DNA of 64,000 nucleotides, from NCBI GenBank assembly GCA_947627445.1, contig CANQWA010000006.1:19037-83036 (forward strand), written 5' to 3'. The notes beneath the pieces are model-generated. The model was not told the origin of the DNA. It saw only the letters and a program-made list of their open reading frames with translations, and made no database searches. Made by a program: the position numbers and the translations under genes. Every line of letters starts with the position of its first letter. Position 1 is the first letter of the stretch. Of this stretch, positions 3,845-14,599 are shown in pieces. The DNA comes from an uncultured Ruminococcus sp. (GTDB lineage: Bacteria > Bacillota > Clostridia > Oscillospirales > Ruminococcaceae).

Positions 3845-5458
3845 ATGAACGACTTTGAGAACAACAATCAGAACGGGTTGAACGTTTCCGGCGAGGAACA
3901 GACACCTGAAAATACGTTTCCCGGAAATTCCGGCACATCCTATTCCGGCGCTGACAACAGCACCTCTTATTCTCATACAAATGATCCGAATATGCCGGAT
4001 ACCGGCAGCAATCCTTACAGCTATCAGAACAGCTTTTACCGCACTGCACCCAGTCAGAATCATACTTCCGGGTACCGCGAATTGCAGCAGCCCCCCATTT
4101 CCGGCGGAAACGGTTACTCCTATGCGAACTATTACTCCAATTTCAATCATTCTGCTTCCGGCGGTCCGAAGGATCATAAGACTCAGAAAAAGCACACCGG
4201 ACTGAAGGTAGCAGCATGTATTATGGCGGTGCTTCTGGTATCCGGCGGTTCTATTGGTATCTATGAGGGCATCCGCACCACCATCGGCTCGAATTCTGAA
4301 AAGCCGATTCTGGCAGAATCCGCAGGCAAATCCAAGAGTTCTGGTGAAAACAAGGCTACCACTCAGACAAACAAGAACACCAGCAATGCAGAAAGCTGGA
4401 TTGAGTTGGCAGCAGGGGATGATGCCATGTCCGTAGCGGATATTGTGAAAAAAGTAACCCCCTCTGTAGTAGGCGTGCAAGCGACATTCTCTATGGAGGC
4501 AAGCCCGAATGATTATTATGGCAACTTCTTTGGCTTCGGCGGTTTCGGCGGCAACCAGGGCAGTACTACACAGCAGGCGACTGGTGTAGGCACAGGCATT
4601 GTCATGAGTGAGGACGGCTATATTGTGACCAACGCCCATGTGATCTATGATGACGATTCCGGTTTCGGCGAGGCGGACGCTGTGCAGGTGCAGATGTACG
4701 ATCAGGAGACCACCTATGATGCCAGCATTGTAGCATATGACAAAGAAGCGGACATTGCAGTACTCCAGATTCATGCAGAAGATCTGGTTCCTGCGGAATT
4801 CGGCGACAGTTCCTCTTGTGAGGTAGGCGAGATGGTGGTTGCTATCGGCAATCCTCTGGGGTTGGAATTCCAGAACACCGTGACCTGCGGCATTATTTCC
4901 GCACTGAACCGCCGTGTGACCATCAATGACAATGCTATGACGCTGATTCAGACAGATACCGCCATCAACAGCGGTAACTCCGGCGGTCCGCTGATCAATA
5001 GTGCAGGACAGGTCATTGGCATTAACTCTGCCAAAATGTCCTCTTCTTATTCCTCTAACAGTGCGTCTGTTGAAGGGATAGGCTTTGCGATTCCCATGAC
5101 AGAGGCGAAGGAGATCATTGACGACCTGATCAATTATGGCTATGTGACCGGCCGTCCGCAGCTGGGTATTTCCTGTCAGGATGTATCGGAGTCGGTTTCT
5201 CAAGCGTATCAGATTCCGGTAGGCGTGTATGTCATCAGTGTGACAGAAGGCGGTGCAGCAGATCAGGCTGGTCTGAGACCGGCTGATGTCATCACAGCCA
5301 TTCAGGGCGAGACGGTTACTACGACAGAAGAACTGAACAATGTGAAGAATCAGTACAATGCTGGGGATACGGTGACACTGACGGTTGTTCGCAGCGGTGA
5401 AAAGCAGGAAATGAAAATTGATGTGGCACTGGAAGAAGTAACCAGGGACACGGAGTAA
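3845..5458 (+). CDS. HtrA/DegP-type membrane-anchored serine protease with PDZ domain
   Basis: 537 residues. A hydrophilic Asn/Ser/Tyr-rich N-terminus (about 1-115, cytoplasmic) precedes one transmembrane helix (about 119-143). A trypsin-like protease domain then contains the full triad: His265 in TNAHV, Asp303 in EADIAVL and Ser379 in GNSGGP. One PDZ domain follows at about 435-525 (GLRPADVI). This matches the HtrA/HtrB/YyxA architecture of Gram-positives, whose members degrade or refold misfolded exported proteins at the membrane-wall interface. AAGGAAGG lies just upstream of the ATG. It is flanked by secreted surface-protein genes, consistent with quality control of exported proteins. Which HtrA paralogue it is cannot be decided. 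Confidence 0.92.
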   Translation: MNDFENNNQNGLNVSGEEQTPENTFPGNSGTSYSGADNSTSYSHTNDPNMPDTGSNPYSYQNSFYRTAPSQNHTSGYRELQQPPISGGNGYSYANYYSNFNHSASGGPKDHKTQKKHTGLKVAACIMAVLLVSGGSIGIYEGIRTTIGSNSEKPILAESAGKSKSSGENKATTQTNKNTSNAESWIELAAGDDAMSVADIVKKVTPSVVGVQATFSMEASPNDYYGNFFGFGGFGGNQGSTTQQATGVGTGIVMSEDGYIVTNAHVIYDDDSGFGEADAVQVQMYDQETTYDASIVAYDKEADIAVLQIHAEDLVPAEFGDSSSCEVGEMVVAIGNPLGLEFQNTVTCGIISALNRRVTINDNAMTLIQTDTAINSGNSGGPLINSAGQVIGINSAKMSSSYSSNSASVEGIGFAIPMTEAKEIIDDLINYGYVTGRPQLGISCQDVSESVSQAYQIPVGVYVISVTEGGAADQAGLRPADVITAIQGETVTTTEELNNVKNQYNAGDTVTLTVVRSGEKQEMKIDVALEEVTRDTE

Positions 5459-5503
5459 TTTTTTTCTGACATCATGTTATTTTTCATACATTCTCCTTAT
5501 TCA

Positions 5504-5566
5504 AGAACCAGTCTTTATCAGAAATCTGCCGGAAAGACGTGCATATCTTCTTGTGAAGACGGGTTC
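5504..5566. repeat. Dispersed hairpin repeat unit (family A, long form)
   Basis: Begins AGAACCAGTCTT and ends AAGACGGGTTC, with imperfectly complementary ends. The core CAGAAATCTGCCGGAAAGA recurs in reverse orientation at 14598-14662, and a diverged version lies at 37869-37919. Confidence 0.6.
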
Positions 5567-5652
5567 CAAGATTCAGGCGGCATCGGAAACGGTGCTGCTT
5601 GAATTTTTTTGTGTGTGAAAATAAGGAAAACATCCGGATCGGGCCGCCTTTT

Positions 5653-5664
5653 AGAACTTGTTCT
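5653..5664. repeat. AGAAC-NN-GTTCT dispersed palindrome, copy 2
   Basis: AGAACTTGTTCT, a perfect 12-bp palindrome in the intergenic space between htrA and dpaA. Confidence 0.65.
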
Positions 5665-5803
5665 TACAGTATTGCCTTAAAAGACGAAAAGTCTGCTGGC
5701 AAGAAGGGCGTTGAGCGGCAGTGTCAACACACCCTGTTCCGATCATTTTGACGCTTTGTGTTTTTTATATAAAATAGTATATCCGGTTCGTTGCCGTCCA
5801 ATC

Positions 5804-5831
5804 ACCCAAATCTCTCATCCCGCATAAAATA
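5804..5831 (+). promoter_or_regulatory. Candidate SigK-type promoter for dpaA-dpaB
   Basis: CATAAAATA at 5823-5831 fits the B. subtilis SigK -10 pattern CATANNNTA exactly, and an AC dinucleotide at 5804-5805 sits 17 bases upstream, the position of the weak SigK -35. The dpaA/spoVF operon of Bacillus is SigK-dependent. The motif is short, so chance occurrence is possible. Confidence 0.35.
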
Positions 5832-5967
5832 AAACAAGGCAGATACCCGAACCGATAAACATGTGGAAACCTGTGGAGAGTACCGGGTATCCGCCGGAAG
5901 AGGTATGTGATGAGTGATACTTGCTGCTTTGCAATAGCGGTAAGTATATGAAGCGGAGGTTGTGGAT

Positions 5968-6789
5968 ATGCAATCTGAAAAAGTGATCATAGTAGCAGGC
6001 GGCGACTTGAGAATGTGCTGCGCCGCAGAACGTCTGGCAAAGCAGACTGGTTGGCAGGTTCAAGCGGCAGGCTTTTCCAAAGCACCAGCAGTCACCGAAA
6101 CGGTCATCGTATGCAGCGATCATCTGGAAAACGCTGTACCCTGTGATGTGCTGGTCCTGCCCATCGGTGCAGGCAAAAAAGCCGATGAGGTAGAAACACC
6201 CTTCGGCACAGCCCCTCTTCCCCTGACAAAGCTGCTGGCACTGACAAAGCCCGGCGGTCTGGTCATGGGCGGACAACTGAAACCGGAATGGATACAGAAG
6301 TGCCGGGATGCCGGAATGGAAACAGCCGATTATCTGAAACGGGAAGAGTTGTGCATCGCTAATGCAGTTCCCACCGCAGAAGGTGCGATTCAAATTGCGA
6401 TGGAAGAGACCATGCATACACTTTACGGCAGCAAAGCCGTGATCACCGGCTGCGGCAGGATTGGCATGGCATTGGGACTGCGTCTGAAAGCTTTGGGTAT
6501 GGAAACTGTCATCTGTGCCAGACGGTGTGCATCCAGAGCGATGGCAGAAGCCGCTGGATGCCGCAGTGTTCCGATGGAGCAGCTGACAAAGGAAGTCGCT
6601 GACTGTCACGTGGTGTTCAACACCATTCCAGCACCAGTGTTGACAGAAACCGTGCTGAAAGCCCTGCCAGCCGAAGCGGTAGTCATTGATCTGGCGTCAC
6701 GTCCGGGAGGAACAGACTTTGACGCAGCCAAAAAACTCGGCACTCGTGTGGTGTGGGCATTATCACTTCCGCCGAAAATGTGGGGTTGA
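5968..6789 (+). CDS. dpaA: Dipicolinate synthase subunit A, 5' part of a gene interrupted by a 6.2-kb element
   Basis: With DpaB, this subunit oxidises a dihydrodipicolinate-derived intermediate to dipicolinic acid in the sporulating mother cell. An N-terminal domain (AGGDLRM) is followed by a Rossmann fold (GCGRIGMA) and the conserved DLASRPGGTDF segment. The ATG at 5968 is chosen because GGAGG at 5955-5959 sits eight bases away; the upstream in-frame GTG at 5962 is too close. The product stops after 273 residues: SLPP is followed by KMWG and a stop, where the family continues SLPGxxAPxTAG. That missing tail is present in frame at 12958-13053. Homology ends at the TCCG at 6768-6771, and the last six codons belong to the inserted element. 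The truncated form lacks the conserved C-terminal segment and is probably inactive until excision. Confidence 0.93.
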   Translation: MQSEKVIIVAGGDLRMCCAAERLAKQTGWQVQAAGFSKAPAVTETVIVCSDHLENAVPCDVLVLPIGAGKKADEVETPFGTAPLPLTKLLALTKPGGLVMGGQLKPEWIQKCRDAGMETADYLKREELCIANAVPTAEGAIQIAMEETMHTLYGSKAVITGCGRIGMALGLRLKALGMETVICARRCASRAMAEAAGCRSVPMEQLTKEVADCHVVFNTIPAPVLTETVLKALPAEAVVIDLASRPGGTDFDAAKKLGTRVVWALSLPPKMWG

Positions 6790-6793
6790 CACA
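6746..6793. other. Left attachment site (attL) of the dpaA intervening element
   Basis: Core TCCG at 6768-6771. Left of it is dpaA sequence. Right of it is an element arm with ATG at 6778-6780 and GTTGACAC at 6785-6792. This arm is an imperfect inverted copy of the right-end arm at equal distance from the core: GTTGACAC begins 15 bases beyond the second core C, and GTGTCAAC at 12933-12940 ends 15 bases before the first core C. Confidence 0.8.
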
Positions 6794-6932
6794 TCTTGGA
6801 TGCGTTAGAAAAAAACGAAAAAACGCCTTTAAACTGCCTGAAAAAAAGGAAAAAACATGCAGAATTGTGAAAATGCTACAAAAATGGGGATAATATTAGG
6901 CGAAGAATTTCAAAAAAATCGGGCGAATACAC

Positions 6933-6961
6933 TTGACAAGGGCGAAATAATGTGTTAAAAT
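6933..6961 (+). promoter_or_regulatory. Strong SigA-type promoter for the dockerin-cohesin genes
   Basis: TTGACA at 6933-6938 and TAAAAT at 6956-6961, spacer 17 bases. It lies inside the element, so the cargo has a vegetative promoter independent of dpaA. Confidence 0.8.
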
Positions 6962-6966
6962 AAATG

Positions 6967-7134
6967 CGTGAATTGTTCACGGGGTGTCTGAAGGCAGCCT
7001 GTGAGCAGTGAAACGCCGGTAAAAGCTGCCGGAGCGATCGAACAGATTGCTTGCCCGGAATAGCGGTTGGGACGGCACATAGAATTACGTACCGGTAAGC
7101 AATATTATAAAAAGAAAAGAGAGGTAAAAGAAAC
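6967..7134 (+). other. Long GC-rich 5' leader of the dockerin gene, probably structured
   Basis: About 168 bases separate the promoter from the ATG. The leader holds several inverted repeats, for example GTGAA / TTCAC near its start and CCGGTAAAAGCTGCCGG in the middle, before an A-rich region with the ribosome binding site AGAGAGG. I could not match it to a riboswitch class I know. Confidence 0.4.
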
Positions 7135-9411
7135 ATGAAGAAGACATTCCACAAGCTTCTTGCTGCGACCGTCGCAATTCCGGTTGCACTGGGTCAGGTT
7201 CTTTCCATGGGCGCAGTTGCAGACAATGCACCGAGCTTCACTGTTACCACAAAAGATCTGCTGCATGTCAATGCAGAGACTGGTTTCCCCACGGAAGAAG
7301 TAACAGCAGATACCACTACATTCTCTTTCGAGCAGGTTTCTACCTGGAATGAGTATGTACAGGAAAGAATCGACAAGATCGATGGCAAGACCCTGAACGT
7401 AAACGCAAAAGAGATCGTTGGTTCTCTGAATGCTACCAGCTACTATGCAGGACTGATTAAGGACTTCGTAGAGGCTTCTGAGAATCCGACTGCTAAGGTT
7501 GACGGCGAAACAATCACCATCGAGGGCACAGCTGATTTCTCTGCTTATCTGGCTCCTGAGCTGGAAGAGAAGTTTGCTTCCAAAGAAGGTTATGAAGATG
7601 TAACCATCAACACCGATATTCTGAAGGATATCACCTACACAGCAACCATCACAACAGATCTGGACAACAAGTCCGCTTCTGCTGACTTTGGCTTTAAGGC
7701 TGACGGCAAAGACTACACAGTAGCTACTGCTGCTGAATTTCTGACTGCTGTTTACGAGAACCTGTCCGCTCAGGTTGACGCTGCAGTAGATCAGAAGGTG
7801 AAAGATCTGGCTGCTGAATATCACATGACAGAACAGGAAGTTCTGGATAATGCGGATTTCGATATTGATGGCGATAAAGCTGCTCTCAAGGAAGTCACCG
7901 ATAAGCTGGCTACCAAGATCAAACAGCTGACAGATAACCTGTCCAAGGTTCAGACATTAAATATTGAATCCAACACATACGATTCTGCAGACGCTGCTCT
8001 GGCTGCTGCAAAGGATTATGCAACCAAGAACAGTATTATTGGTGCAAGCTACATTCCTTCCAGCGTAGATGCTGGAATCGCTAAGATCGGCAATACATTT
8101 GATTCTGCTGTAGCATCCTTCAACACCAGTCTGGAAGAAGCTGATGTAAACGTACAGATCGCAGTAAGCGCAAGCGACATTGCTTCTGTTCTGAAGAGCG
8201 CATCTTCTGTTACAGCTGGCGCAAAAGACGGCGTTGTAACCGCTGAGCTGATAGTAGAAGATACAGAAAAGGCTGATGTAGAGGCTTATGTAGAAGATCA
8301 GGTAGCTGCTCTGGATATCGACAAGGAAGTTGAGTCTGTTGAGACAGAAAAAGTTGTTACCGTTATGATGGATCTTGCCAATGCAACTGCTTCTCTGGAT
8401 GTTGTTCGTAACGTAACAGTTACTTTGAAGGACATCGATGTAACGACAACGACAACAACGGGTTCTACTCCAATTGCAACTGGCACAACAACGACTGTCA
8501 GCGGCGAAACCGGTGAAAACCCTGGTTCTGAAACAACTACCAGCGATACAGGTGACAACCCTGGTTCTGAAACAACTACCAGCGATACAGATGACAACCC
8601 TGGTTCTGAAACAACTACCAGCGATACAGGTGACAACCCTGGTTCTGAAACAACTACCACTGAGAGCAGTGAAACAGGCAGCAACACCGGTTCTGAAACA
8701 ACTGGCACAACTGAAACGACAGAATCTCTGCCGCCGGCAACCGATGTAAAGGCTGTTGAAGTTGAGCTGTATGATAACGAAGCATCCAACGGCGTATACT
8801 TTGCGCACGAAGAGTCCTATAATGCAGCTGATCTGATCAAGTCGGTTACTCTGGTTCTGAACAGTGTAGACGAAAACGGTGACAATGAGGTCGTTGAAGT
8901 TGAAAATCCGGCTGTTGCCATTGGCTTCCTGACCACACCTGGTGAGGACTATGCATCTGCAGCTGACGAAGGCTACTTCATGGGCGAGATCAGCGTATAC
9001 TATCTGCCGGACAGCGAAAAGACTCCTCTGGATGTACATCCGGTTGTAGGCGTTGCCAAGAAGGGTGATACAACTCTGGACGGCGCTGTTGATGAAAGTG
9101 ACGCATGGTGGACATTGATGTACAACTCCCACATTTCTGCTGGTCTGACGGATTATACATTCACCAATCAGGAAGACTATGATGCTGAAGTAAATGTCCT
9201 GCTGGAAAAGCTGGCGTACCTTGTATCGGATATTGATACAGAGCGCAAGACTGGTAAGGATGAACTGGGCAGTACTGAGAACACCATTAGCCAATCAGCT
9301 GATGCATTTGTTATTTTGATGGCATCTTCTGTTATTCGTCAGGGTCAGGCTAAGGATGATGATCCGGACTTCTGGCAGGTTGTTAGAGAGTTCATGGATG
9401 GCAACAATTAA
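7135..9411 (+). CDS. Secreted protein with C-terminal X-module-like domain and dockerin
   Basis: 758 residues with a signal peptide (about 1-29, ending AVA). Residues 35-430 contain weakly repetitive alpha/beta sequence (two copies of an AFLT/ADFG-like block) that I do not recognise. Next come a Thr/Ser/Gly/Asp linker with a 13-residue tandem repeat (about 461-512) and a domain at about 535-640 that resembles the X-modules preceding dockerins in scaffoldins. The dockerin begins near 643 with GDTTLDGAVDESDAW; its second half is degenerate (STENTISQSADAF). In R. flavefaciens an X-dockerin dyad of ScaB binds the wall-anchored cohesin ScaE, and here a single-cohesin anchor follows 143 bases downstream, so the pair may dock. 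Codons ending in T (GCT, GTT) are much commoner than in neighbouring genes, suggesting high expression. Confidence 0.75.
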   Translation: MKKTFHKLLAATVAIPVALGQVLSMGAVADNAPSFTVTTKDLLHVNAETGFPTEEVTADTTTFSFEQVSTWNEYVQERIDKIDGKTLNVNAKEIVGSLNATSYYAGLIKDFVEASENPTAKVDGETITIEGTADFSAYLAPELEEKFASKEGYEDVTINTDILKDITYTATITTDLDNKSASADFGFKADGKDYTVATAAEFLTAVYENLSAQVDAAVDQKVKDLAAEYHMTEQEVLDNADFDIDGDKAALKEVTDKLATKIKQLTDNLSKVQTLNIESNTYDSADAALAAAKDYATKNSIIGASYIPSSVDAGIAKIGNTFDSAVASFNTSLEEADVNVQIAVSASDIASVLKSASSVTAGAKDGVVTAELIVEDTEKADVEAYVEDQVAALDIDKEVESVETEKVVTVMMDLANATASLDVVRNVTVTLKDIDVTTTTTTGSTPIATGTTTTVSGETGENPGSETTTSDTGDNPGSETTTSDTDDNPGSETTTSDTGDNPGSETTTTESSETGSNTGSETTGTTETTESLPPATDVKAVEVELYDNEASNGVYFAHEESYNAADLIKSVTLVLNSVDENGDNEVVEVENPAVAIGFLTTPGEDYASAADEGYFMGEISVYYLPDSEKTPLDVHPVVGVAKKGDTTLDGAVDESDAWWTLMYNSHISAGLTDYTFTNQEDYDAEVNVLLEKLAYLVSDIDTERKTGKDELGSTENTISQSADAFVILMASSVIRQGQAKDDDPDFWQVVREFMDGNN
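8515..8670 (+). repeat. Four tandem 39-bp units encoding a 13-residue linker repeat
   Basis: The unit encodes DNPGSETTTSDTG. The first three copies are almost identical at DNA level and the fourth diverges near its end. It forms the flexible linker of the dockerin protein and is a candidate for slipped-strand length variation. Confidence 0.85.
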
Positions 9412-9554
9412 GTAAAGCGATAAAGACTTTACGTTAACCTCGTGTCCGATTCAGGACAAAATCAACCATTACGCTTGTATATGCAGTGGTACGAGGTGCA
9501 TATCGTACCACATGCATATCACATATAATTTACATCTGAAAGGAAATAAGAAAA
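9412..9554 (+). other. Intergenic leader with hairpins between dockerin and cohesin genes
   Basis: Contains GTAAAG / CTTTAC just after the stop and a longer hairpin GTGGTACGA / TCGTACCAC (9486-9494 and 9503-9511). Neither has a clear T run, so they may be processing or stability structures that set the ratio of the two proteins. A TATAAT at 9524-9529 lacks a good -35. GAAAGGAAA precedes the cohesin start. Confidence 0.4.
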
Positions 9555-10271
9555 ATGAAGACTACATTTAAGAAGACCTTTGCTGCTATGTCCGCTGCAG
9601 CTGTTGTAGCTGCTTCCGCTGTTGCTTTTGCTGTTCCGGCAAGTGCAGCTTCTGATGCTGTATGCCGCGTTGGTAATGTAGAAGTTACTCTGTCTGAGCT
9701 GGCAGCTGCAAATTATCAGGTAACTGTTCCGATCATCCTGGACAACAACCCTGGTGTAAACAATCTGGGTGTACGTTTTGGTTATGATGAGAGCCAGCTG
9801 TCCTTTGTTTCCGAATCTGCTGTTTCTGGTATGGACGCTTCTCTGCACGTAGCTCCGACTCTGTGGTTTGCTTTCATGGATCAGAAACTGGTTACTGCTT
9901 CTGAAGTAGGTTCCATGACATTTGAGCTGCCGTCAACTGCAGCTGTAGGCGATGTATACACCATCGAAGGCTTCACCACTGACGCTAACGGCGCTCCTGC
10001 TGTACTGGGTATCAACGGTGAGAACGTAGGTCTGGCTGATGTTCAGAGCGGTACCATCACCATCATTGCAGATCCGACAGAAGCTCCGACAGAAGCTCCG
10101 ACAACAGAGGCTCCGACAACTGCAGCTCCGGTTGTAACCACAACTGCAGCTCCGGTTGCTACTCCGACTACTGGCTCTCCGAAGACTGGCGATGCTCTGC
10201 CGGTTGCTGGCGTAGCTGTAGCAGTAGCTGTTATCGGCGGCGTTGCTCTGGTTTCCAAGAAGAGAAAGTAA
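9555..10271 (+). CDS. Cell-wall-anchored single-cohesin protein (ScaE-like anchoring scaffoldin)
   Basis: 238 residues. A signal peptide (about 1-32, ending ASA) is followed by one cohesin domain (about 36-175) with the typical start VPIILDNNPGVNNLGVRFGYD, read here as a beta-sandwich that clasps a dockerin. A Thr/Pro/Ala linker (TEAPTTEAP) leads to the sorting signal SPKTGD, a hydrophobic stretch and KKRK. Its small size and single cohesin resemble ScaE of Ruminococcus, which anchors the whole cellulosome to the wall. The dockerin protein encoded immediately upstream is the obvious candidate ligand. Like that gene, it is rich in GCT and GTT codons. It lies inside the dpaA intervening element, so it would be lost from a mother-cell chromosome after excision. 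Confidence 0.82.
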   Translation: MKTTFKKTFAAMSAAAVVAASAVAFAVPASAASDAVCRVGNVEVTLSELAAANYQVTVPIILDNNPGVNNLGVRFGYDESQLSFVSESAVSGMDASLHVAPTLWFAFMDQKLVTASEVGSMTFELPSTAAVGDVYTIEGFTTDANGAPAVLGINGENVGLADVQSGTITIIADPTEAPTEAPTTEAPTTAAPVVTTTAAPVATPTTGSPKTGDALPVAGVAVAVAVIGGVALVSKKRK

Positions 10272-10341
10272 GAGCTGACCCTACGTCATAAAGACGTTTT
10301 GCGCAACTGAATTCATGGATACGTTTCATGCGTATCATACG

Positions 10342-10373
10342 GCACTCCCGGTAAAACCGGGAGTGCTTTTTTT
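10342..10373 (+). terminator. Terminator after the cohesin gene
   Basis: GCACTCCCGG / CCGGGAGTGC with a five-base loop and a run of eight T. It separates the cohesin gene from the recombinase gene. Confidence 0.92.
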
Positions 10374-10457
10374 GTGGAATTGGTTAAAAACAATGCGGTG
10401 ATTTCCGTGTATACATGATGTCAAAAAGCCCGGCGTATACTGATATGAGGTGATCTT

Positions 10458-11903
10458 ATGACAGCCATATACGCCCGGCAATCCGTAGAGCGCAAAGCTT
10501 CAATATCCATTGATATGCAGACAGAAACCTGTATCCGTCTGTTGCCGCCAAATCAGGCATATCGTGTCTATTCAGACCGGGGTTTCAGCGGAACCAACAC
10601 CCATCGCCCGGCATTTCAGCAGCTATTAGAGGACATTAAAGCCGGTGAGATTGGAGAGGTCTACGTCTACAAGCTGGATCGTATCTCTCGTTCGCTCTGT
10701 GATTTTGCAGCAATGATGCAAATGTTTCGGGAGCACGGCGTCACGTTGCGCTCTTGCCGGGAAAGCTTTGATACGCAAACGGAGATTGGTGTGATGATTC
10801 TCAATCTGTTGATGATGTTTGCAGAAATGGAACAGAAAACGATTGCCGGACGTGTCCGTGACAATTATTATGCCCGTGCGAAGCAGCAGCTGGCACTGGG
10901 GGGGATTGCGCCCTATGGTTTCACCTATTGCACGGTGGAAAAGGGAAGGAGACCGACGAAGGCATTACAGGAAATTCCCGAGGAAGCGGAGATTGTGCGG
11001 CGTTTTTATACCCAATATGGCGTTCAGGGGTGGAACATTGAACAGATCGTTCACCATGCCAATCAAAACGGCTGGAAGACCAGAAGGAAAGCCAACTGGT
11101 CGAACAGCGGGGTTTTGCGGCTTCTACGCAGTCCGGTTTATGTGCGGGGAAGCCTGGATGTGCTGCGTTATTTCCTGCGGCAGGGCGCAAAGCTGGTGCA
11201 TTCGCCGGAGCAATACTGCTGCGGAAATGGGTGTTTGACTTTTGTTAGCGGCGAGACGCACATTGCCGCTGGATTGCATCAGGGAATCATTGTGCCTGCC
11301 CTGTGGCTGGCAGTACAGCAGAGGTTGGATCATCGAGGGGGCAGTAAAAATGGCGGTACAGGGATGCGTTCTTGGCTGCAAGGCTGTGTGATCTGCGGGT
11401 ATTGCGGCGAAAGCTGCTATGTGCGGGGGAACGGAAAGGGGGACGCCTATACCTACTTTGTCTGCCGGGGAAAGCGGCTGGGTATTTGCAATGGATTACA
11501 AGGGTTGCGTGTCAGTCGGGTGGAACGGGAAGTGGAAAAGGTTCTGATGCAGCAGGCGGTGCGCGTGTTGCCCTATGGGTCGGTGAAAAGGGAGGAAAAG
11601 CCCGATCCAGCTGCGTTGGAACTGGAGCGAATCGAAGAAAAAATGCGGAAAATTCTGCGGGAAATCGGAGAAAATGACAGCTGGGAGGATTTGATGCGGC
11701 AGGAGCTGGAGATGTTGGGGAGGGAAAGGGAGCGTTTGATGCGGGAAATTCGCCGGCAAAAAGGATCTTTTCCACAAAGTCCGGAGAAATTGTGGAAAGT
11801 ATGGTGGAGTTCAGCGGATATATCCCAAAGGCGGCAGGCGGCTGGTGTGTTGGTGGAGAAGGTTTGTTTGTGGAATGACCGAGCGGAAGTATTTTTCCGG
11901 TGA
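10458..11903 (+). CDS. Large serine recombinase, predicted excisase of the dpaA intervening element
   Basis: 481 residues. The N-terminal resolvase domain (about 1-145) starts YARQS with Ser9 as nucleophile and has the expected arginines (YKLDRISRS). A recombinase domain (about 155-265) follows, then a zinc ribbon (about 308-345: CVICGYCG, then FVCRG and C) and a coiled-coil region (about 375-440). This is the full architecture of phage integrases and of SpoIVCA, the skin-element recombinase; no frameshift or missing domain is visible. GAGGTGAT just upstream of the ATG is a good ribosome binding site. It has its own terminators on both sides, so it is probably transcribed separately from the cargo; timing in the mother cell is inferred from its location. 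I see no recombination directionality factor nearby. Confidence 0.92.
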   Translation: MTAIYARQSVERKASISIDMQTETCIRLLPPNQAYRVYSDRGFSGTNTHRPAFQQLLEDIKAGEIGEVYVYKLDRISRSLCDFAAMMQMFREHGVTLRSCRESFDTQTEIGVMILNLLMMFAEMEQKTIAGRVRDNYYARAKQQLALGGIAPYGFTYCTVEKGRRPTKALQEIPEEAEIVRRFYTQYGVQGWNIEQIVHHANQNGWKTRRKANWSNSGVLRLLRSPVYVRGSLDVLRYFLRQGAKLVHSPEQYCCGNGCLTFVSGETHIAAGLHQGIIVPALWLAVQQRLDHRGGSKNGGTGMRSWLQGCVICGYCGESCYVRGNGKGDAYTYFVCRGKRLGICNGLQGLRVSRVEREVEKVLMQQAVRVLPYGSVKREEKPDPAALELERIEEKMRKILREIGENDSWEDLMRQELEMLGRERERLMREIRRQKGSFPQSPEKLWKVWWSSADISQRRQAAGVLVEKVCLWNDRAEVFFR

Positions 11904-11907
11904 GAAA

Positions 11908-11950
11908 AAAAGAAGCAGTCTCTTGTAAAAGAGGATCTGCTTCTTTTTTT
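11908..11950. terminator. Bidirectional terminator between the recombinase and the C39-like peptidase
   Basis: AAAGAAGCAG / CTGCTTCTTT with an A run on the left and a T run on the right, so it can end transcription from either side. Confidence 0.85.
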
Positions 11951-12046
11951 AGGGTGTGTTGAGAGTCGGTTGCTTTTCAAGTGGATGGACGATAACGGCC
12001 AAAAACATCGGAACAATTACCCCACGCCGAAAATGGATATAACAGT

Positions 12047-12829
12047 TTATCGGAAACAAACTACCGCTTGCCGTCCTAATTGCTCATACCGTTTTTCCAC
12101 CAATTCTCTCGGATAGGAACAAAACCCCTTTCCGTTATAGGGATCCAGAAAATAATAAACCTCCGCATCATATCCCACCAGCACAAGGCAATGCTCATGC
12201 CGAATCCATGTGAACCATTCATCTTTTTCGGGAATATACCAGGATGTTCCTGTTTCTGGTTCCATCATCTCGATGGTGCCCCATATCGCCACGGGGATAT
12301 CCTGGTCAATATACGTGGTTAATAGTTGAGAAAAAAGCTTTCCCGTCAGATCATACACGGTTATATCTGCATCTGCCATCCGCTCTATAGCAGCTTGGAT
12401 CACCGGTGCATAACAGCCGTAACCATGGGGTGAATAGGGGTCGCCGATAAATGCATCATAAGGACTTTTTCCGCAGAGAACATCCCCTGATTCAACCAGA
12501 TCACAGGTGGATATTCCATTGTCTGCAAATGATTCCAGCGTGATATCAACCCCCAAATTCTGCATTAGCATCACGGCACTGGCAATTTCACAGCCTGTGG
12601 GAAGTCCTTCCTGGCTGACGTAGGGGACGTCCGAGATCTGATGGCTGAGAAGCTTTTCCGGCTGGGTTTCCTCGATGGGGTCGGCGTCAATGGTCAGAGA
12701 TTCGGTGGGAGAGATGATGTGATTTGTGGTAGATGCCGAAGATGGATGTTTGGCGATATAGGTGGTGTTTATCAGAGATGCTGCAGTCAGCAGTGCAGCT
12801 GCGGTTAAGATACATGTTGTGGTTTTCAT
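12047..12829 (-). CDS. Secreted C39-family-like cysteine peptidase
   Basis: 260 residues from the ATG at 12829, chosen because AAAAGGAGG sits nine bases upstream; an in-frame upstream ATG at 12862 would spoil the signal peptide. The N-terminus MKTTTCILTAAALL is a signal peptide or anchor. The domain (about 90-255) fits the Peptidase_C39_2 family: nucleophile Cys in LPTGCEIAS, His in HEHCLVLVGYD, and Asp/Asn in LDPYNG. Relatives are papain-fold enzymes, some processing peptides or surface proteins; the substrate here is unknown. It lies in the right part of the dpaA intervening element and is transcribed toward the recombinase. Confidence 0.8.
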   Translation of the reverse strand: MKTTTCILTAAALLTAASLINTTYIAKHPSSASTTNHIISPTESLTIDADPIEETQPEKLLSHQISDVPYVSQEGLPTGCEIASAVMLMQNLGVDITLESFADNGISTCDLVESGDVLCGKSPYDAFIGDPYSPHGYGCYAPVIQAAIERMADADITVYDLTGKLFSQLLTTYIDQDIPVAIWGTIEMMEPETGTSWYIPEKDEWFTWIRHEHCLVLVGYDAEVYYFLDPYNGKGFCSYPRELVEKRYEQLGRQAVVCFR

Positions 12830-12930
12830 GGTGCGGTTCCTCCTTTTGGCAATAAAACACATTTAAGAGAGATTTTGTGACTGGTAGAATGTTTTCAGGC
12901 TGCCGCTGTGCTTTCTGGTTTTTTGCTTTT

Positions 12931-12980
12931 GGGTGTCAACGCCGCATCTTCCCTCCGGGGAAGATTGCACCCATCACTGC
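12931..12980. other. Right attachment site (attR) of the dpaA intervening element
   Basis: Core TCCG at 12954-12957. To its left is the element arm with GTGTCAAC at 12933-12940 and CAT at 12945-12947, mirror positions of GTTGACAC and ATG in the left arm. To its right dpaA resumes in frame with GGG AAG ATT GCA. Confidence 0.8.
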
Positions 12981-13056
12981 CGGTTCGATCATCGCAGATA
13001 CCATCTGCAATATTCTCGAGGAGAGGAGACTCGTTCATGATCGATCTGACAGGTGA
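12958..13056 (+). pseudogene. dpaA: Detached 3' end of dpaA (last 32 codons plus stop)
   Basis: Reads GKIAPITAGSIIAD, then TICNILEERRLVHDRSDR and stop. This matches the C-terminal tail of DpaA (B. subtilis ends LPGIVAPKTAGQILANVL and so on, from memory). It has no start of its own. Joined to 5968-6771 at the TCCG core it gives a 300-residue protein. Its stop codon lies 20 bases inside dpaB, the overlap expected for an operon pair, so the arrangement before insertion was dpaA-dpaB. It is not a decayed pseudogene in the usual sense: the sequence appears intact and waiting to be rejoined. Confidence 0.9.
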
Positions 13057-13618
13057 GCGGATTGGATTTCTGGTCACAGGTTCGTTCTGTACCTTTTCTG
13101 CCGCCTTTACACAAGCAGTTCTCCTCCGTGACTGCGGAGCAGAACTGACACCGATTTTTTCCGAACATGCATCATCTATCGACACCCGCTTCGGCAAAGC
13201 TGCAGATCGGGTGGCAGAACTGGAGAAAATCTGCGGCAAATCGGCGATCTGTACCATCGCCGATGCAGAACCCTTAGGACCCAAAGATATGCTGGATTTG
13301 TTGGTGGTCGCCCCCTGTACTGCCAATACAGCCGCAAAGCTGGCACAGGGCATTACCGATACCACCGCAACTATGGCAGTCAAATCCATGCTGCGCCGGC
13401 AAAAGCCAATTGTTCTTGCCATTGCCACCAATGACGGACTGCGTGCATCGGCAAAAAACATTGGACTTTTGCTGAATACCAAAAATTACTATTTTGTTCC
13501 CTTGGGGCAGGATGCACCAGAGAAAAAACCGGCGTCTCTGGTAGCAGATTTTAAAAAGCTTCCAGAAACGGTGGAAGCAGCGCTGGACGGACGTCAAATT
13601 CAGCCAATTTTCATATAG
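13037..13618 (+). CDS. dpaB: Dipicolinate synthase subunit B (flavoprotein-like)
   Basis: 193 residues, close to the roughly 200 of SpoVFB. It belongs to the flavoprotein (DFP) fold family, with RIGFLVTGSFCTF near the N-terminus and LLVVAPCTANTAAKLAQGITD in the middle. It acts with DpaA to make dipicolinic acid for spore core dehydration and heat resistance. The ATG at 13037 is chosen because AGGAG at 13024-13028 lies eight bases upstream and homology starts there; the frame stays open further upstream but that is dpaA and element DNA. With the element in place, dpaB is cut off from any promoter in front of dpaA by 6.2 kb and by internal terminators, so excision should restore both translation of dpaA and transcription of dpaB. 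Confidence 0.9.
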   Translation: MIDLTGERIGFLVTGSFCTFSAAFTQAVLLRDCGAELTPIFSEHASSIDTRFGKAADRVAELEKICGKSAICTIADAEPLGPKDMLDLLVVAPCTANTAAKLAQGITDTTATMAVKSMLRRQKPIVLAIATNDGLRASAKNIGLLLNTKNYYFVPLGQDAPEKKPASLVADFKKLPETVEAALDGRQIQPIFI

Positions 13619-13643
13619 CCCTCGGAAATCTGTAAAAAAGTTG

Positions 13644-13652
13644 TGCTATACT
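13644..13652 (+). promoter_or_regulatory. Extended -10 promoter candidate for the AEC transporter
   Basis: TGCTATACT, an extended -10 with no good -35, 24 bases upstream of the ATG at 13676. Confidence 0.45.
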
Positions 13653-13675
13653 GTTTCTGAAAAGGAGAGATAGCT

Positions 13676-14599
13676 ATGGCACTGATTATATTGAAACAGG
13701 CAATGATTATGCTGCTGCTCAATGCAGTAGGAATCATTGCCTTTCGCTGTGGTATTGTGGATAAAGTCGGCGGCAGACAGTTCTCCAACTTTATTCTGGA
13801 GATCGTCACCCCGGTGCTGGTGGTAAACGCCTATGCTGAAGTAGAATACGAATCCCGGCTGGTAGTCAATCTGTTGTGGACATTTTTGCTGGCAGCGGTT
13901 TCCTATATGATTTCCATTGCAGCTGTCCACCTGTTGATCCGCCGGAAGGAGAGTGGAGAGACTGCCATCGAACGTTTTTCTGCCATCTACAGCAACTGCG
14001 GCTTTATGGGTATTCCTCTGGCGAGTGCACTGCTGGGCACAGAGGGTGTGTTTTATGCGTCGGCATTTCTGACCGTATTTTTCTGTTTTGCCTGGACACA
14101 CGGTATTATGCTGCTGACAGGACAAAGCGACTGTAAGGCATTGGTGAAAAAGCTCTGCTCACCCACCATGATCGGCATTGCCATCGGTCTGCTGCTGTTT
14201 TTCTGCCGGATCAGGCTGCCGGAGCTTTTGCAGACGACTTTGGATCATGTTGCCGGTTTGAATACGCCTATGGCAATGGTGGCGTCCGGTATCAGTGTCG
14301 CTCAGGCGAATCTGTTTCAGGCGTTGCGAAATCCCAGAGTGTATTACGTCAGCGCCGTCAAGCTGCTGATTTTGCCGTTGATCCTGGGGGCGGTGTTTTT
14401 GCCTTTATCCTTGATTCCCGTGGAAATACGGACGGTGGTTCTGGTGCTTGCGGCTGCACCTTCTGCGGCAATGTGTACGCTTCAGTGCCAGAAGCACGGA
14501 AAAAATGATCTGTATGCATCTTATATTTTTGCCGTGACGACCATCCTATCCATGGGGACAATGCCTTTAATTGTGAAGCTGTTTACCATGATCTCATAG
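13676..14599 (+). CDS. AEC (auxin efflux carrier) family transporter
   Basis: 307 residues with about ten hydrophobic segments in two halves and the family pattern: an N-terminal helix ending in a kink, the YSNCGFMGIPL signature near residue 103, and AAAPSAAMC in the second half. Family members in bacteria export organic acids such as malate or other anions; the substrate cannot be deduced here. GGAGAGAT precedes the ATG. A short hairpin follows the gene. It sits between dpaB and spoIID, but nothing links it to sporulation. Confidence 0.85.
   Translation: MALIILKQAMIMLLLNAVGIIAFRCGIVDKVGGRQFSNFILEIVTPVLVVNAYAEVEYESRLVVNLLWTFLLAAVSYMISIAAVHLLIRRKESGETAIERFSAIYSNCGFMGIPLASALLGTEGVFYASAFLTVFFCFAWTHGIMLLTGQSDCKALVKKLCSPTMIGIAIGLLLFFCRIRLPELLQTTLDHVAGLNTPMAMVASGISVAQANLFQALRNPRVYYVSAVKLLILPLILGAVFLPLSLIPVEIRTVVLVLAAAPSAAMCTLQCQKHGKNDLYASYIFAVTTILSMGTMPLIVKLFTMIS

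Follow-up and report, generated by a model that had tools for sequence, protein, structure and literature searches.

A recombinase-encoding element splits the sporulation gene dpaA across nearly all of the genus of Ruminococcus callidus and is a candidate for developmental excision

Elements that split sporulation genes are known from Bacillus and Clostridium, among them vfbin, reportedly described by Abe et al. in 2013. As far as the accessible parts of two papers describe it, vfbin splits spoVFB (dpaB) of Bacillus weihenstephanensis KBAB4 (PMC6957869, PMC5595907). The gin element in gerE of Bacillus cereus ATCC10987 is presented in the accessible text as 28.6 kb long, with 31 genes, three recombinases and the directionality factor GirX (PMC5595907), and the available portions of further papers cover skin in sigK, SP-beta in spsM and skinCd of Clostridium difficile (PMC5025042, PMC5595907, PMC4191935). 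In the accessible portions of open-licence papers, elements are reported in sigK, spsM, gerE, yabG, spoVFB and spoVR and we found none in dpaA, although subscription journals may contain one. Here, we describe a 6,186-bp element that splits dpaA in a 64,000-nt stretch of DNA (the window) on contig 6 of an uncultured Ruminococcus genome (2.58 Mb, 97% complete). It carries the gene of a large serine recombinase and lies between attachment-type (att) ends with matching half-sites; the arrangement is conserved nearly genus-wide and the detached 3′ end of dpaA shows coding-type conservation. We consider it very probable that, late in sporulation, the recombinase removes the element from the DNA of the mother cell, which would restore DpaA and dipicolinate synthesis.

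The 5′ part of dpaA starts at GTG 5962 or ATG 5968 and reads as DpaA to a conserved Leu-Pro (6766–6771), after which it enters element sequence with an in-frame TGA (6787–6789). The tetranucleotide TCCG is present at both ends (6768–6771 and 12954–12957) with an offset of 6186 bp, and joining the two parts there (the empty-site reading) gives 302 residues from the GTG or 300 from the ATG, with no stop. On this reading the score of the window protein against a profile of 17 DpaA rose from 339.4 to 386.3 bits, and the score was lifted in all 13 loci given. A sequence-only reading of the window had proposed that removal of a 6186-bp element restores a full-length DpaA of about 300 residues through an in-frame TCCG junction. 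The split, the att geometry and the gain in profile score confirm this observation, and the two product lengths bear out the junction. The same reading placed the C-terminal part 6186 bp downstream, which holds, and in the same frame, which is a coincidence and which we rejected as evidence: element length modulo 3 is 0, 1 or 2 in the 10 relatives whose two ends share a contig. What relatives preserve is the codon phase in which CC stands at either end. Thus, as in gene-intervening elements, a sporulation gene lies in two parts that join in frame. Another complete dpaA in the genome would have undermined this account, and the DpaA_N search found a single match in the whole window genome.

Four shared bases are by themselves weak evidence for a boundary. 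The element boundary is firm because an imperfect inverted repeat from a repeat search (6774–6792 and 12933–12951, 84%) has its symmetry centre on the CC of the shared TCCG and because the same geometry recurs in relatives. An alternative core, CTTCC (6766–6770 and 12948–12952), was rejected, as its offset of 6182 bp is out of frame and it lies off the symmetry centre. In our genus set (16 genomes, including R. callidus ATCC 27760), CC was present in 15 of 15 left ends and was followed by N16 and TGNCA in 14; the left end of G002 deviates, with the form TTTGCACA and identical letters in its opposite arm. Right ends carried TG[TA]CA-N16-CC in 11 of the 13 tabulated (TGTTA in G012 and TGCAA in G002), and the right end of G007, read separately, has TGTCA-N16-CC. 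The two arms also co-vary. Across 13 species they match at 14.4 of 22 positions within a species compared with 11.2 between species and 6.0 when shuffled, and none of 100,000 permutations was as good. Such co-variation of arms that lie kilobases apart is expected if a single protein binds both. The element therefore ends in a short common core with inverted arms, the form that attachment sites of gene-intervening elements take.

Selection acts on the detached 3′ end. When its first 24 codons were compared in 13 species, codon positions 1, 2 and 3 had identities of 0.74, 0.85 and 0.40, compared with 0.28–0.32 in the adjoining element sequence. In three species (L040, L054 and L057), merely 4–5 codons are open ahead of the fragment and no start codon is among them. 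Taken together, the simplest explanation is that the fragment is kept for a protein that exists only once the parts are joined. The lost C-terminal part carries residues that are invariant in 17 aligned DpaA (PG..AP...G).

The split is a feature of the genus. DpaA N-halves were found in all 16 genomes, 28–57% identical to that of the window, and in 15 of them, R. callidus included, they end at Leu/Ile-Pro and the att motif is present there. Right ends were identified in 14 genomes and the recombinase likewise in 14, where the best match of each always lies at the dpa locus: on the dpaA_N contig in 11, and beside dpaA_C or dpaB on another contig in three (G002, G004 and G007). In genomes with the whole locus on one contig, its parts run dpaA_N, CttA-like gene, ScaE-like gene, recombinase, dpaA_C and dpaB; R. 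callidus has the same layout but its recombinase is inverted (L040:4762-6237), with the −10 motif retained. The recombinase is free of internal stops in 13 of 14 genomes, and its distances between genomes follow those of dpaA (r = 0.88, 0 of 20,000 permutations; 12 genomes) and of the flanking htrA (r = 0.79, 28 of 20,000 permutations; 10 genomes). Overall, the element seems to reside in the genus and to be inherited vertically, and does not look like an active mobile element. The exception among the left ends is G009, which has an intact dpaA reading LGLPGKVAPLTAG across the junction and no recombinase match. Uninterrupted relatives, which the sequence-only reading had suggested looking for, thus exist within the genus and beyond G009 in P0012, an intact DpaA relative that reads SLPGKVAPMTAG across the junction; most DpaA in the family, among the matches listed, reach the C-terminal end. 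Directly upstream of the intact dpaA of G009 lies the end of a ScaE-like gene (L051, reverse strand, 3–272 and 443 onwards). A search of 7 stretches that surround intact dpaA in other genera found no cargo of this kind. This cargo remnant without an element may hint at how the element arose or was lost.

Table 1. Coordinates of the split dpaA, the element and its sites in the window
Feature	Position	Strand	Remarks
Sigma-K-type promoter-like motif of dpaA, CACC-N16-CATAAAATA	5803..5831	+	nACm-N15-17-CATA...T in 10/14 genus genomes given
dpaA 5′ part, truncated open reading frame of 275 aa	5962..6789	+	Genuine DpaA up to 6771; DpaA_N 79.3 bits; NF006162 244.6 bits, under the cut-off of 261
attL core TCCG	6768..6771	+	Putative crossover dinucleotide CC 6769-6770
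Left inner half-site, N16-TGACA, following CC	6771..6796	+	TGACA 6787-6791; TGNCA at the same spacing in 14/15 left ends
Vegetative sigma-A-like cargo promoter, TTGACA-17-TAAAAT	6933..6961	+	Identical motif and spacing in 13/13 genus loci given
X-module/dockerin-like secreted protein, 758 aa (CttA-like cargo)	7135..9411	+	CttA_N 24.4 bits, just under the cut-off of 25.0
Cohesin with sortase-type anchor, 238 aa (ScaE-like cargo)	9555..10271	+	Profile of 12 relatives
Mother-cell-type −10 motif CGTATACT	10434..10441	+	5 nt ahead of GAGG in the recombinase ribosome-binding site
Large serine recombinase, 481 aa	10458..11903	+	Resolvase, Recombinase and zinc ribbon domains, all three above cut-offs
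C39-like peptidase (accessory cargo)	12047..12862	-	77.9 bits
Right inner half-site, TGTCA-N16, followed by CC	12934..12954	+	TGTCA 12934-12938
attR core TCCG	12954..12957	+	CC 12955-12956
dpaA 3′ part, PGKIAPITAG..., with stop	12955..13056	+	32 residues, 33 including the shared Pro; overlaps dpaB
dpaB, intact	13037..13618	+	ATG 13037; NF006161 259 bits, above the cut-off of 156

The recombinase matches the phage-type integrase family phrog_95 (311 bits) and was the sole match in its own genome at E ≤ 1e-20. The profile of the ScaE-like protein and its relatives matched the cohesins 10uw (E = 5.9e-15) and ScaE 2zf9 (E = 3.8e-9), and the dockerin of the CttA-like protein was read from the sequence, no dockerin model having matched. 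Of the genus loci searched, that of the window alone has the C39-like peptidase, which is perhaps a recent acquisition. The elements of 8 relatives are 4.7–5.2 kb long and hold the two cargo genes and the recombinase, separated by intergenic gaps of 27–390 nt; they share no further conserved gene, and the reading frames in the leader gap differ in length. When the four main open reading frames of the window element were compared with Pfam, NCBIfam and PHROGs, no phage structural or replication genes, which would mark a defective prophage, were found, and the recombinase alone matched a phage family. Upstream of the cargo promoter, a block at 6865–6919 is strongly conserved in 9 aligned loci (TTGTG.AAA.GC...CAAAAA...AATATT...GAATTT.AAAAAAAT). 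An Rfam scan of 5000–14500 gave a single match, below the gathering score, on a terminator hairpin.

Promoter-like motifs suggest when these genes would be read. Of 14 genus genomes given (the 16 without G005 and G007), 10 have the motif nACm-N15-17-CATA...T ahead of dpaA (0.26 expected), and all 13 given for the recombinase have C[AG]TA...T-N4-7-GAGG before that gene (0.13 expected), also where the gene is inverted; a stricter form of the recombinase motif matched 5 of 13 and a GAGG-alone form 13 of 13. The cargo, in contrast, has a vegetative-type promoter in each of 13 loci (Table 1). From these motifs, the recombinase and dpaA would be read by a mother-cell sigma factor and the cargo in growing cells. 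Likewise, the motifs, together with the precedents, are what suggest that excision is controlled by sporulation and confined to the mother cell. In the proposed sequence of events, a mother-cell sigma factor would read the recombinase and dpaA late in sporulation, the recombinase would join attL and attR at CC so that the element leaves, and the rejoined dpaA would give full-length DpaA and hence dipicolinate synthesis; the cellulosome-anchor gene pair carried as cargo would be read in growing cells. SpoIVA is present in 14 of 16 genus genomes, that of the window included, which also has two open sigma-E/K-type genes, neither above the cut-off of its model. TIGR02846 did not separate sigma-E from sigma-K, as nothing matched above its cut-off.

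Excision is supported by the conserved att sites, the conserved recombinase and the coding-type evolution of the 3′ fragment. Several points weigh against sporulation-controlled excision. The excised junction was not found in the window genome's own assembly, which is expected because the DNA is vegetative, and among the matches listed (120 of 1358) no intact DpaA had an N-half nearly identical to that of a split one. Upstream of the recombinases there is no clear sigma-K −35; the motifs were written after the sequences had been viewed and their expectations come from single-letter shuffles, so these were not blind tests. No gene in the element is recognisable as a directionality factor, which, if there is one, is probably encoded outside the element. 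To our knowledge, R. callidus is described as non-spore-forming. Individual genomes also fit less well: in G013 the contig stops near the left end, the right end is off the contig and no recombinase was found in the genome; in G006 (L047) the recombinase is broken by a frameshift and a stop; and in G007 both halves are diverged (the N-match, at 28%, begins only at residue 61; C-part PGYTAPKSAA). Finally, relatives of the recombinase occur in 82 of 297 family genomes at E ≤ 1e-70, so the recombinase by itself is no rare find and it is its position that matters.

The abundance of such relatives would suit an ordinary integrative element that excises at random, with no sporulation control and with restoration of dpaA as a side effect. 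Viral contigs hold 18 recombinase relatives (26–45% identical), and the element has what it would need, a complete recombinase of the phage-integrase family phrog_95 and att sites. The same contigs had no relative of protein P0108 and one distant DpaA. However, the three other main open reading frames match no phage or transfer family in Pfam, NCBIfam or PHROGs, inheritance looks vertical, and in 13 of 13 the recombinase has a −10 like that of dpaA and unlike the TTGACA/TAAAAT of the cargo. Random excision is, in our judgement, quite improbable. Alternatively, an old integrative element may have broken dpaA permanently, leaving relics in a lineage that lacks dipicolinate by this route or altogether. 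That no excised form appeared in the genome's own assembly or among the DpaA matches listed agrees with this, as do the diverged halves of G007 and the condition of G006, where besides the broken recombinase SpoIVA is open for 305 aa only and the sigma-factor match contains a stop; the damage in G006 looks like decay of sporulation or poor assembly. Other clostridia, according to the available part of one paper, make dipicolinate without dpaAB (PMC3533761). Permanent breakage is nonetheless very improbable, given a 3′ fragment of coding type, att arms that co-vary across genomes whose DpaA N-halves are as little as 28% and at most 57% identical, and a recombinase so rarely interrupted. Least of all do we credit that the N-terminal part works alone, or that two separately made parts assemble with no need of excision, which the position of both annotated domains in the N-part and a GTG start (12877) for the reading frame around the window's 3′ fragment would allow, but which conflicts with the invariant residues of the lost part and the missing start codons in three species and leaves the conserved att sites unexplained.

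Excision that rejoins dpaA in sporulation remains the reading we prefer; the gene split itself is real and conserved, and it is probably developmental. The interpretation given in the sequence-only reading is thus supported, and it underestimated the extent of the split, which is nearly genus-wide and has counterparts at two further dpaA sites elsewhere in the order. Splits of dpaA fall at three conserved sites across order genomes and named Ruminococcus, Oscillospiraceae and Clostridia metagenome-assembled genomes. At site C, that of the window (between SLP and GKVAP), both halves were found in L104, L114, L117, L121 and L123, and one half beside a recombinase in L063, L079, L090, L103, L173 and L175. 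Site A (between NAVPTA and EGAIQ) is split in 11 genomes, with ∼2.5 to 43 kb separating the halves when they are on one contig, and with halves on different contigs in G466 and G595. Site B (between ASKPGG and VDF) is split in 5 genomes. In G638 (L191/L192), sites A and B are both split, leaving dpaA in three pieces around two elements, so two excisions would be needed. The flanks share in-register short cores, from a few bases to 20 nt (G469), that permit in-frame joining, in a comparison that did not include G595 and in which the site A C-half of G638 was not found by pattern. In G360 (L182/L183), the ∼43 kb separating the dpaA halves gives room for a prophage.

The 11 recombinases of site A make up a single supported clade, as do the 5 of site B (Shimodaira–Hasegawa-like approximate likelihood ratio test, SH-aLRT, 100 and 98), whereas those of site C (22) belong to a wider group mixed with others, with 4 changes on the tree. 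The tree held 40 dpa-locus recombinases and a thin comparison set of 13 from loci without a dpa match (from 23 tried out of 56 such loci, after a motif filter). At least 14 of the 332 DpaA-bearing genomes in the order sample are split, the window's own included and counting only the multi-match genomes followed up; of 16 multi-match genomes, 13 are split and G465, G471 and G605 have two DpaA-like genes instead. Counts of split genomes in the family and order are lower bounds. They leave out G207 (ends at a contig end), G024 (N-half missing in the stretch read), G311 (runs off the contig), and G061 and G156, whose halves are adjacent (frameshift or fission).

dpaB is affected in another lineage. 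In L097 it is split within GSFCTH (2459–2500 and 10309–10776), with a 13-nt core common to both positions (2484 and 10319); the adjoining recombinase is of the L063 type and dpaA is intact, a vfbin-like case. L091 (9544–9834) shows the 3′ part of dpaB only. The cargo of two site-C elements, L104 (6326–14708) and L117 (6734–14005), comprises in each a LytR-CpsA-Psr protein, two ATP-binding cassette (ABC) permeases of sugar type and a LacI regulator (ten open reading frames scanned, two without a match), a set that resembles growth genes more than phage genes.

More tentatively, and with slightly less than even confidence, we propose that dpaA serves gut clostridia as a dedicated 'somatic intron' locus, with at least two recombinase clades each specialised for one conserved dpaA codon site and a third, wider group for the window's site. 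In the genus of R. callidus, the element would then be a two-way switch, in which one mother-cell-only excision deletes a vegetative cellulosome-anchor operon and turns on dipicolinate synthesis, without a directionality factor encoded by the element. Dipicolinate underlies spore resistance, and spores carry commensal Clostridia between hosts. If the excision reading is right, spore maturation in an entire Ruminococcus genus hinges on a programmed genome rearrangement, annotations that give a truncated DpaA at this locus mislead, and scattered cases from Bacillus and Clostridium become a testable pattern that recurs at one gene, where three sites have recombinase groups to match. The loci are also a source of site-specific recombinases with predicted attachment sites, and they raise the question of why growth genes for fibre and sugar use persist within a spore gene.

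Compared with known systems, the window recombinase is related to XisF of the cyanobacterial fdxN element, which acts in developmental excision in heterocysts; its best NCBIfam match is the XisF model NF041201, but at 134.7 bits against a cut-off of 375 it is not of the same family. The cargo resembles the CttA/ScaE-type cellulosome-anchor pair of adjacent X-dockerin-like and sortase-anchored cohesin proteins, here placed inside dpaA. As far as the accessible texts describe them, skin, SP-beta and skinCd also split a mother-cell gene that is rejoined in sporulation, but they are prophages or prophage-like, and directionality factors are known for SP-beta and skinCd. The gin element, like that of the window, is not a prophage: from the same partial accounts, it interrupts a sporulation gene and the serine recombinase GirC excises it. 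It is 28.6 kb long with GirX, whereas the window element is 6.2 kb with one recombinase and no recognised directionality gene. From the available descriptions, vfbin shares with the window element the operon and pathway, a split mother-cell gene and a serine recombinase. The two are set apart by description, not by sequence comparison: vfbin lies in dpaB, which is intact in the window, while here the split gene is dpaA, in a Ruminococcus genus, nearly genus-wide and with vegetative cellulosome cargo.

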